NCBI RefSeq assembly: GCF_900108515.1
Contig: NZ_FNWW01000005.1
Location: 186,001 to 250,000 of the forward strand
Reading direction: 5' to 3'
Length of the DNA: 64,000 nucleotides
DNA from: Halobacillus karajensis
GTDB taxonomy: Bacteria > Bacillota > Bacilli > Bacillales > Halobacillaceae
The position numbers were made by a program, and so were the translations under genes. Of the stretch, positions 1,861 to 59,320 are shown one piece after another. A model generated the notes under the pieces. That model ran no database searches, was not told the origin of the DNA, and was given only the letters and a program-made list of their open reading frames with translations. The stretch's first letter is position 1. Each line of letters opens with the position of its first letter.

Positions 1861-1894
1861 CAGAGAGGGTTCAGCAATCCCTCATCAGCTAACT

Positions 1895-1967
1895 TTCCTT
1901 ATAGTCCGGCCATTTACGGTAGCCAGGTAGAGACTTGTGGACCTTATTTCCACATTTATATAAGGAA
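1895..1967 (-). promoter_or_regulatory. Purine (guanine-type) riboswitch aptamer
   Basis: Read on the minus strand, P1 is TTCCTTATA...TATAAGGAA. P2 has arms TGTGGA/TCCACA. The J2/3 signature is CTCTACC, P3 is the CTGGC/GCCGG arm with the loop ACCGTAAAT, and J3/1 is GACTAT. The discriminating base before UAU is C, which in this family (xpt-type) specifies guanine; adenine sensors carry U there. It precedes the nupG-like gene and a terminator whose arm competes with P1, giving an OFF switch when guanine is plentiful. Confidence 0.93.
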
Positions 1968-2119
1968 TCCGTATAGAATAGAATGATAGAAATTCTAGCA
2001 GACACTATTTGGCATGGCAAGGCACTTGACGAATGTTTTAATATACAAAAAATTCAGGAGGAAAATAAAAGGTATGGATGAAAAGGCCTCATGAACGGTT
2101 TTAGGTTTATGGAGAATAA

Positions 2120-11423: not shown

Positions 11424-11531
11424 TTCTTATCAAGAGAAGTGGAGGAACTGGTCCTGTGAAGCTTCAGCAACCACCAACGTCAGTTGGCCGGTGCTAATTC
11501 CAGCAAGTGGTAAACACTTGAAAGATAAGAA
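11424..11531 (+). promoter_or_regulatory. SAM-I riboswitch (S-box) before metT
   Basis: P1 is TTCTTATC (11424-11431) with GATAAGAA (11524-11531). Conserved core: CTTATCAAGAGAAGTGGAGG, ACTGGTCC, GCAACC, then GTGCTAATTCCAGCAAG and AAAGATAAG. It is followed by a terminator whose 5' arm CCTTCTTAT can pair with ATAAGAAGG of P1, as in transcriptional OFF switches responding to S-adenosylmethionine. Confidence 0.95.
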
Positions 11532-32990: not shown

Positions 32991-33113
32991 GCGATGAGCT
33001 GTTTGTGTAAGACGAAGTATATGCTTCTTTTTGAAGCTAAACGACGAATGTGGTCGTCGGTATATTCGCGACAAAAATCGAAAGCCTTTCCTTTAAAGGA
33101 AAGGCTTTTTTCT
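32991..33113 (+). ncRNA. Putative small RNA 1 (promoter to terminator, about 120 nt)
   Basis: A sigma-A promoter (TTGCTA-17-TATATT) is followed about 100 bases later by an intrinsic terminator. Between them are hairpins GAAG-TATAT-GCTTC and CGAC..GTCG, and there is no ribosome site with an ORF. It could be a trans-acting sRNA, or the attenuated leader of the helix-turn-helix gene that starts 85 bases beyond the terminator. It does not match any RNA family I recognise. Confidence 0.45.
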
Positions 33114-34355: not shown

Positions 34356-34382
34356 ATGAGACTACATAGGAGACATCTACAT

Positions 34383-34411
34383 TTGATTAGATGGAGTAAA
34401 TATGGTATTTT
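34383..34411 (+). promoter_or_regulatory. Sigma-A promoter of putative sRNA 2
   Basis: TTGATT, 17 bases, TATTTT. The transcript would begin next to the 10-bp stem of the RNA described below. Confidence 0.6.
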
Positions 34412-34417
34412 AGAGAC

Positions 34418-34525
34418 AATGCCATCCTAGCAATCGTAACGACTGCGGGAAACTTAACCATTTCTTTAGGATGGCAGGTTATATAGCCATGCAAACCTTC
34501 TACGGATTCGTAGAAGGTTTTTTTG
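34418..34525 (+). ncRNA. Putative structured small RNA 2 (about 107 nt)
   Basis: Behind TTGATT-17-TATTTT, the predicted RNA folds into a perfect 10-bp outer stem TGCCATCCTA (34420-34429) / TAGGATGGCA (34467-34476). The stem encloses a small hairpin GCA.TCG-TAA-CGA.TGC and a conserved-looking GGGAAACTTAACC. A linker and an intrinsic terminator AACCTTCTACG...CGTAGAAGGTT with a seven-U run follow. No ORF with a ribosome site fits inside. It lies between the spo0E-like gene and cstA. The compact multi-stem fold is like a regulatory RNA or riboswitch, but I cannot name a family. Confidence 0.55.
34491..34525 (+). terminator. Terminator of putative sRNA 2
   Basis: AAACCTTCTACGGATTCGTAGAAGGTTTTTTT: ten-pair stem, TTCG-type loop, U-run. 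Confidence 0.9.
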
Positions 34526-34792
34526 TGCAGAATATAATTATTTTAGGGACATAGCAGAAAAAGTACGATGTTACTTAGCGAAGGTTGCCAGAAAGAATCA
34601 TTTGACGGAACCTGCCCCTTCATAAGGTAATCATCTCCTCTCAATGAACCCATATAGTTAATAACGGTGCAAGCGTTTTATTCTTAAGAAAAAAAAGAAT
34701 AAAATATAAATATTCAGAAAATGGGTTGTGATTCGACAATTTCAGCGCTAGAATACTCCTTACATTCATATGATTTGAAAGGAGGCTCAGCG

Positions 34793-52504: not shown

Positions 52505-52626
52505 TTCTTATCCAGAGAGGCGGAGGGACTGGCCCTTTGATGCCCGGCAACCATCGAATCAATCCAAGGATTGATAAGAACGGTGCCAATTCCTGTAGGA
52601 TGTATAAACATTCTAAGAGATGAGAG
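52505..52626 (+). promoter_or_regulatory. SAM-I riboswitch (S-box) before msrA
   Basis: P1 CTTATC (52507-52512) pairs with GATGAG (52619-52624). The core is AGAGAGGCGGAGGGACTGG, CCCTTTGATGCCCGGCAACC, GGTGCCAATTCCTGTAGG and TAAGAGATGAG, the SAM-I consensus. A terminator follows at 52645 and msrA starts 120 bases after the aptamer. Confidence 0.94.
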
Positions 52627-59091: not shown

Positions 59092-59122
59092 AAAAAACCT
59101 CGTCTCTAAAAGAGACGAGGTT
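59092..59122 (-). terminator. T-box-controlled terminator of argS leader
   Basis: On the minus strand AACCTCGTCTC-TTTT-GAGACGAGGTT followed by a U-run, directly after the T-box motif. Confidence 0.93.
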
Positions 59123-59320
59123 AGGCTCGCGGTACCACTCTTATAGCTTTATCAGCCACTTGAAGTTGTTAACGGGGACGACCCCGGCTATCCCTACTCT
59201 TTCGTTCAGGAAAGCTTCTCAAAAGTCCGTTTCACCACAGAAACCTTGTTCAGGCTTTCACCAACCCTGACTCGCTATACTGATTCCATGCAGTTACTCT
59301 CTTTTTCTTTGAATTTCAAT
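59092..59320 (-). promoter_or_regulatory. T-box leader of argS
   Basis: On the minus strand: AGTAACTGCATGGAATCAG opens Stem I, then AGCGAG, GGTTGGTGAAAGCC and the specifier strand GTGAAACGGACTTTTGAG, followed by the T-box AGAGTGGTACCGCG at about 59127-59141 and the terminator. The triplet in the usual specifier position (after GAAA and before ACTTTTGAG) reads CGG, an arginine codon, in agreement with the downstream argS. Confidence 0.93.

Follow-up and report, generated by a model that had tools for sequence, protein, structure and literature searches.

A conserved candidate small RNA gene of Halobacillus karajensis and its relatives in Bacillales, with complementarity to 16S rRNA

The RNA gene and its locus

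The window, the whole stretch of DNA analysed here, is a 64,000-nt region of Halobacillus karajensis (NZ_FNWW01000005.1). A predicted small RNA gene lies in it between an upstream gene for a Spo0E-like protein (PF09388) and the downstream cstA gene (CstA, PF02554), and a PF01042 (RidA-type) protein is encoded further up. An initial annotation of this DNA had described a promoter, a perfect 10-bp stem, a folded apex and a terminator, and direct reading finds all four where it had placed them (Table 1). The promoter-to-core distance in the window locus is the same as that of the relatives. With a start near 34418, the predicted transcript has 107 nt, in agreement with the earlier estimate of about 107 nt without an ORF, and no window ORF of at least 40 aa overlaps the gene. 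The terminator had also been said to end the RNA well before cstA, and about 200 nt indeed separate the end of the RNA from the cstA ORF.

Table 1. Features of the small RNA gene in window coordinates
Feature	Position	Strand	Basis
Sigma-A-type promoter, TTGATT-17-TATTTT, extended -10 (TGG before TATTTT)	34383..34411	+	read directly; top-scoring site of locus L032
-35 element TTGATT, followed by a 17-nt spacer	34383..34388
-10 element TATTTT	34406..34411
Predicted small RNA, about 107 nt	34418..34524	+	ends inferred from promoter and T run
P1 5' strand, TGCCATCCTA	34420..34429	+	perfect 10-bp stem read directly; covariation
Inner hairpin GCA.TCG-TAA-CGA.TGC	34430..34446
P2 side hairpin TCG-TAA-CGA	34434..34442	+	seen in predicted fold; pairing counts in class A
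Conserved core TGCGGGA-AA-CTTAACC	34444..34459	+	invariant letters in alignment; complement of 16S rRNA GGTTAAGTCCCGCA, 2-nt bulge
Stretch GGGAAACTTAACC	34447..34459		read directly
Mostly unpaired loop CTTAACCA, proposed first contact	34453..34460	+	unpaired probabilities 0.78-1.00
P1 3' strand, TAGGATGGCA	34467..34476	+	perfect 10-bp stem read directly; covariation
Intrinsic terminator	34493..34524	+	12 pairs; T5 run downstream in 75/84 loci
Terminator stem-loop, T run up to 34524	34493..34520

The fold energy of the stretch (-52.4) is better than that of 200/200 dinucleotide shuffles (mean -34.4, sd 3.65, z -4.9), and it is -43.3 (z -5.4) when the promoter part is removed. By consensus counting alone, the window scan gave one terminator against 1.1 expected, so that such signals are not rare, and the window promoter is missing from the promoter scan list at the threshold of that scan. 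The two signals are credible because they are conserved over 84 dereplicated loci, not by consensus counts.

The initial annotation had proposed an Rfam search, and an Rfam 15 scan of the window found no family at its gathering score over the RNA. Elsewhere in the window, the BsrF small RNA (RF01411) scores 63.1 bits (gathering score 50) at 32991-33106 (+), approximately 1.4 kb upstream of the RNA gene. Matches above the gathering scores were also obtained for two SAM riboswitches, a purine riboswitch, and a T-box leader, at 11424-11531 (+), 52505-52626 (+), 1882-1983 (-), and 59108-59318 (-).

Class A, the type found in the window

DNA comparison detected the RNA in 23 of 61 relatives, the window's own genome counted. 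The alignment of these 23 loci (A1; 20 distinct rows) consists of a variable stem, P1, surrounding a constant apex. The eight aligned P1 pairs are formed in 98.8% of the cells, and two-sided changes occur at four of the eight. Fourteen cells are changed on both sides, whereas shuffles average 3.8 (sd 1.5) and a slid pairing gives no more than 5. Further pair types, one of five covariation measures, are not in excess (7 against 7.3 in shuffles). The P2 side hairpin forms at least three pairs in 25 of 30 sequences, compared with 37% of shuffles.

A covariance model of class A (R1) found one copy each in 31 of the 44 genomes of the window's family, in three of its six genera. Three of the 22 genomes of the window's genus (G003, G004, and G020), themselves nearly complete, lack a class A match to this model. 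Over a sample of the order, R1 matched 21 of 299 genomes. Fifteen of these matches are strong, eight in the window's own family (f1) and seven in a second family (f36); four are weak and lack the core, and two weak ones belong to class B (L067 and L068). Model matches without the core in G106, G119, G145, and G230 were taken as false. The E-values of R1 and of the class B model R2 come from a short calibration.

Class B and the spread over the order

Class B is a divergent class with the same architecture as class A and is found in seven further families of the order. Its P1 sequence differs from that of class A, its apex has the form TTCGCTTGTTGCGGGACACTTAACCA..CGG, and most members have a terminator. 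Scanning named genomes with YTGCGGGAMACTTAACCAT gave 49 loci: 14 in Halobacillus, all of class A, one in Chryseobacterium, and 34 of class B, titled Rossellomorea, Metabacillus, Robertmurraya, Priestia koreensis, Bacillus, or metagenome bins. The Chryseobacterium locus (L134) has the core letters without a P1-type stem and was taken as chance, despite 25.8 bits from R1 on the core alone. In an alignment of 25 of the 34 distinct class B sequences (A2), two-sided changes are seen at 10 of 11 P1 pairs, and P1 together with two P2 pairs holds 74 two-sided cells, the corresponding counts being 26.8 (sd 4.4) for shuffles and no more than 27 for slid pairings. Covariation of the closing stem among relatives had been named as a check in the initial annotation, and it is present in both classes above the level of shuffles; the contrary outcome, drift of both arms without compensation, was looked for in the relatives and not found. 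The CGG after the class B core is invariant in A2 and often repeats the start of the P1 3' strand; pairing with 16S rRNA does not explain it.

A pattern search in the order matched 31 of 397 genomes, and its reversed-pattern control gave one match. Model R2 matched 55 of the 397 genomes, four of them being weak matches to class A and 51 lying in families f4, f5, f18, f19, f27, f44, and f47. Of these 51 loci, 49 were retrieved (G317 and G394 were left out), and the core is present in 49/49; five, all in f19, have the form GGGACTAACC. A class-wide sample yielded matches in 2 of 398 genomes, both in the same order, and a phylum sample in 0 of 378, an empty answer that stands without a positive control. 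Rfam scans, which covered the window RNA and class B loci and left out the f36 and f19 forms, gave no match over class B in a set of five loci, nor in a set of 12 with at most three in common with the first. The RNA family has no Rfam match where it was scanned.

The model of each class picks up the other class no better than at E 0.004-0.009, so that A and B may not be homologous. No model was built from a combined alignment, as the two classes failed to align in P1. The letters TGCGGGA and TAACCA, with a short insert between them, are common to all classes (33 sequences). The P2 side hairpin is UCG/CGA in class A and CGC/GCG in class B, and the core letters beside it are unchanged.

Phages and plasmids gave no match to the window RNA, and viral contigs gave none to a class B-like pattern, which does not cover class A. 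One class B RNA of Cytobacillus spongiae (NZ_CP089998.1, 484177-484250; L208:2480-2553) lies on a 690-kb replicon, with chromosome-type neighbours and a 6S gene alongside. A mobile origin was considered and rejected.

Promoter, terminator, and gene context

A promoter score of at least 9 is reached in 50 of the 84 dereplicated loci and in 19% of shuffles, the best site per locus being taken for real and shuffled loci alike. In 70 of the 84 loci the distance from the end of the best promoter-like site to the core is 29-40 nt (a position without a control), and transcription would therefore start at about the foot of P1. In L188 and L199 it is P1 itself that precedes the T run. In the folds predicted for the window, with and without the promoter part, the terminator is independent of the apex. 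The gene is thus predicted to have its own promoter and terminator, a trait of trans-encoded antisense small RNAs. A product from the opposite strand, which would mimic 16S rRNA, is disfavoured, as the downstream T5 run of Table 1 compares with an upstream A5 run in 24 of the 84 loci. Cues within the stem fall on both sides: a C-A mismatch common to two sequences would be a wobble on the opposite strand, and three G-U and two U-G cells favour the plus strand.

The neighbouring genes are mostly constant within a lineage and different between lineages, and both orientations occur. In class A they encode CstA- and RidA-type proteins, and in most Halobacillus loci the RNA gene lies upstream of cstA on the same strand. 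Class B loci of the Rossellomorea type have a set of three or four neighbours, with other genes elsewhere. Neighbours in the same order, matched by order and size and not aligned, occur in Cytobacillus spongiae: a DUF948 protein, an MtnX-like HAD phosphatase, a peptidylprolyl isomerase, and a holin family protein. No downstream gene or gene class, as expected of a cis-regulatory leader, is constant across lineages. Because the neighbouring genes differ between lineages, the RNA is, judged from sequence, a stand-alone gene and not a leader of cstA. A free trans-acting RNA had been favoured in the initial annotation; the near-fixed promoter distance, the terminator, the lack of an ORF, the covarying stem, and the lineage-variable neighbours support this view, in which the RNA would be transcribed and act in trans.

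The gene for 6S RNA is found on the opposite strand in 6 of 12 class B loci scanned, at a tail-to-tail distance of about 100-110 bp in L107, L113, L130, L142, and L208 and of 1.2 kb in L103.

Complementarity of the apex to 16S rRNA

The constant tip of the RNA, UGCGGGA(nn)CUUAACCA, is complementary, with a 1-2-nt bulge, to GGUUAAGUCCCGCA in 16S rRNA, a point absent from the initial annotation. This site is the helix 36/37 arm, at about 1088-1108 in E. coli numbering. The string GGGTTAAGTCCCGCAACGAGCG, whose complement is CGCTCGTTGCGGGACTTAACCC, is present in the 16S genes of three genomes, two with class A and one with class B. Class A RNAs pair with the site over 7 + 7 bp, with the bulge of 1-2 nt in the small RNA. 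Class B RNAs pair over 11-14 + 7 bp with at most one G-U, except L143 (8 + 7), and the pairing of L191 is Watson-Crick throughout its 14 + 7. In the f19 form, whose 3' arm is shortened, pairing extends over 12-14 + 5. The 53 core strings examined, one of which is L134, were gathered with an expression that demands TGCGGGA and TAACCA, so that 7 + 7 or 7 + 5 is built in and the unselected part is only the extension of class B to 11-14 nt.

The class B core reaches -42.9 on 16S rRNA, whereas shuffling either the core or the 16S gives a mean of -28.3 (0/200 do as well in each case), and its reversed and complemented forms reach -26.3 to -29.5; part of the -42.9 comes from a second, non-conserved complement. 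This second complement (AACCATGTAC with GTGCATGGTT, near 16S position 1050) was judged a coincidence, since other class B members have AACCAGTACGG and AACCATTGTTCGG, and the cores used for the rrn-operon and opening-cost computations end before it. The energy of the class A core is not significant: out of 200 shuffles each, 23 of the core and 18 of the 16S sequence do as well, and the 1-nt-bulge variant is equalled by 8 and 16 of 200, respectively. The true class A core (-22.1) is surpassed by its own reverse complement (-22.8) and complement (-24.9). Over two whole rrn operons the 16S site is the best for five of five cores, with a narrow lead in class A (-22.1 against -21.0 and -21.8).

Two-strand folding was done with a 70-nt 16S fragment and 200 core-shuffled controls. 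The RNAs of L191, L180 (with the core of Priestia koreensis), L155, and L199, representing class B and f19, beat 200/200 controls, L199 (f19) by only 0.5 kcal/mol. For the window RNA the site was not chosen (-2.7, the same as the controls). After opening costs, the net gain is 6.4-7.0 kcal/mol for the window RNA and about 13 to 20 for the other four, as sums without a shuffled control. CTTAACC in the window RNA is mostly open, with unpaired probabilities of 0.78-1.00. The pairing is weakest in class A, the class to which the window RNA belongs. A pseudoknot between GGTT (34477-34480) and the loop AACC was rejected, as relatives have GGCC, GGCT, or GTTT there while AACC stays.

The string GGTTAAGN{0,2}TCCCGCA was located in 14 genomes. 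It occurs without a gap in 12 of them, and each of the 14 has a single copy with an insert of 1-2 nt, on the strand opposite the RNA gene. In the three genomes compared (G009, G011, and G297), the number and position of the gapless copies match those of the 16S genes, and for the other nine the same is deduced from copy number. The window's own genome and G142 have neither gapless copies nor a 16S gene in the assembly, so that the 16S rRNA of the window's genome is unseen. No other full-length complement of the core exists in the 14 genomes, the target string being limited to 16S-like copies or the strand opposite the RNA gene. A conserved stretch complementary to a target encoded elsewhere is thus clear for class B and weak for class A alone.

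A possible antisense RNA acting on 30S assembly

We consider it marginally probable that the gene encodes a stand-alone RNA, about 107 nt long and transcribed from a sigma-A-type promoter of its own, whose P1-borne apex is antisense to the 16S helix 36/37 arm and acts on free or assembling 30S subunits. The covarying P1 would present the apex with its constant UGCGGGA(1-2 nt)CUUAACC. Helix 37 is a hairpin with the loop UUAAGU, and a GGG/CCC hairpin also appears in the predicted fold of the 16S fragment. The antisense of such a hairpin is again a hairpin with an exposed ACUUAA-type loop, so a loop-loop start would be natural. The exposed CUUAACCA loop may touch the UUAAGU loop of the rRNA first, and the remaining core may then zip up, as in classical loop-loop antisense RNAs. 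16S rRNA is among the most constant RNAs of the cell, and core letters that stay while the side hairpin differs between the classes are expected if the core pairs with something constant.

The helix 36/37 arm lies in the 30S head near uS2. Because the arm is structured in the finished 30S, the likely substrate would be nascent, assembling, or damaged 16S rRNA, and the process affected would be 30S head assembly, quality control, or inactivation. During 30S decay in B. subtilis, the turning of the head by RNase R is accompanied by the loss of uS2 and uS3, the proteins that bridge head and body (PMC10901742). Head assembly is described as a costly step in another study (PMC13246957). Neither text mentions h35, h36, or h37 (0 occurrences), and the two show the region only as a control point. 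A further-reaching reading, put forward tentatively as a possibility, is that of a U3-like RNA in bacteria: a dedicated and stably folded small RNA of the Bacillales, which would pair with the helix 36/37 arm while the 16S rRNA is nascent and thereby steer, proofread, or shut off the folding of the 30S head.

The same stem, open loop, and terminator fit the usual small RNAs that act in trans on mRNAs. If the exposed CUUAACCA were an mRNA seed, the complementarity to 16S would be a by-product or a relic, and the class A pairing, not significant on its own, agrees with this. We regard such a role as rather unlikely, as the core is the same in nine families, whereas mRNA seeds and their targets usually drift together. 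The long class B match to 16S and the lack of another full-length complement in the 14 genomes also speak against it.

A constant sequence inside a covarying stem is typical of binding sites, and the core could be a junction that binds a protein or a ligand, its likeness to antisense 16S being a coincidence. The conserved CGG after the class B core would fit here. This explanation appears improbable to us, since the side hairpin differs between classes A and B while the core letters stay, and a chance match of 14 + 7 nt to 16S is very unlikely (0/200 shuffles).

The apex also resembles antisense 16S with small indels, as would a relic, an rRNA-derived antisense fragment turned into an intergenic hairpin and kept for its terminator or not at all. 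Two-sided compensation in P1, the near-fixed promoter distance, and one copy per genome point to selection on the RNA and make this reading very improbable. A riboswitch or attenuator of cstA, suggested by the position upstream of that gene in most Halobacillus loci and raised as a riboswitch-like alternative in the initial annotation, is hardly tenable and was rejected on gene context and terminator, because the terminator shares no bases with the apex (in L188 and L199 P1 takes its place before the T run), cstA is distant, and relatives have other neighbours in both orientations.

Comparison with known systems

Several known RNAs resemble the antisense candidate in part. The trpB ncRNA motif (RF04312) also has a stem followed by a terminator, but as the best weak match it reaches only 24.4 bits against a gathering score of 59 (E 0.53), which is the chance level. 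6S RNA (RF00013) is likewise a small RNA of the housekeeping type, and its gene adjoins class B in 5 of 12 loci and is 1.2 kb off in a sixth; however, it is a separate gene on the opposite strand without a sequence match to the class B RNA. Plasmid antisense RNAs of the RNAI and CopA type act by loop-loop contact, with a stem-loop complementary to the hairpin loop of their target. The candidate shares this stem and loop, but its gene is not opposite its target, the target would be an rRNA, and the gene is single-copy and mostly chromosomal.

As far as titles and abstract starts tell, no report of such an RNA was found; ribosome-associated RNAs of other kinds are described, and most subscription papers lay outside the reach of the search. 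In the literature examined, which included PMC8632094, a chimera protocol removes rRNA (PMC8216469), rRNA chimeras are usually treated as noise (PMC7213987), and PMC12249760 offers a probe only. SprF1, a dual-use antitoxin of Staphylococcus aureus, and a 16S-binding Val-tRNA fragment of Haloferax resemble the candidate as small RNAs proposed to act on the ribosome and not on mRNA, and the archaeal fragment contacts 16S (PMC8938821). They differ in being an antitoxin and a tRNA fragment, and no bacterial RNA family dedicated to antisense pairing with the helix 36/37 arm is mentioned in the passages of that source.

A single-copy RNA family that spans nine families of the order and has no Rfam match where scanned deserves a name even if its target is another. 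A real pairing would provide an easy genetic route to 30S head assembly or inactivation in the Bacillales.

The box C/D and U3-type snoRNAs of archaea and eukaryotes are likewise encoded by dedicated RNA genes and carry a guide stretch complementary to the small-subunit rRNA. Their C box is RUGAUGA and their D box CUGA, and neither string occurs in 34418-34524, so that the candidate is not a box C/D snoRNA by this trait. To our knowledge, bacteria lack the partner proteins of box C/D snoRNAs, and we know of no modification at this 16S site. Should the pairing with the helix 36/37 arm be real, the RNA would be a dedicated bacterial small RNA that acts on rRNA by base pairing, as snoRNAs do in archaea and eukaryotes.
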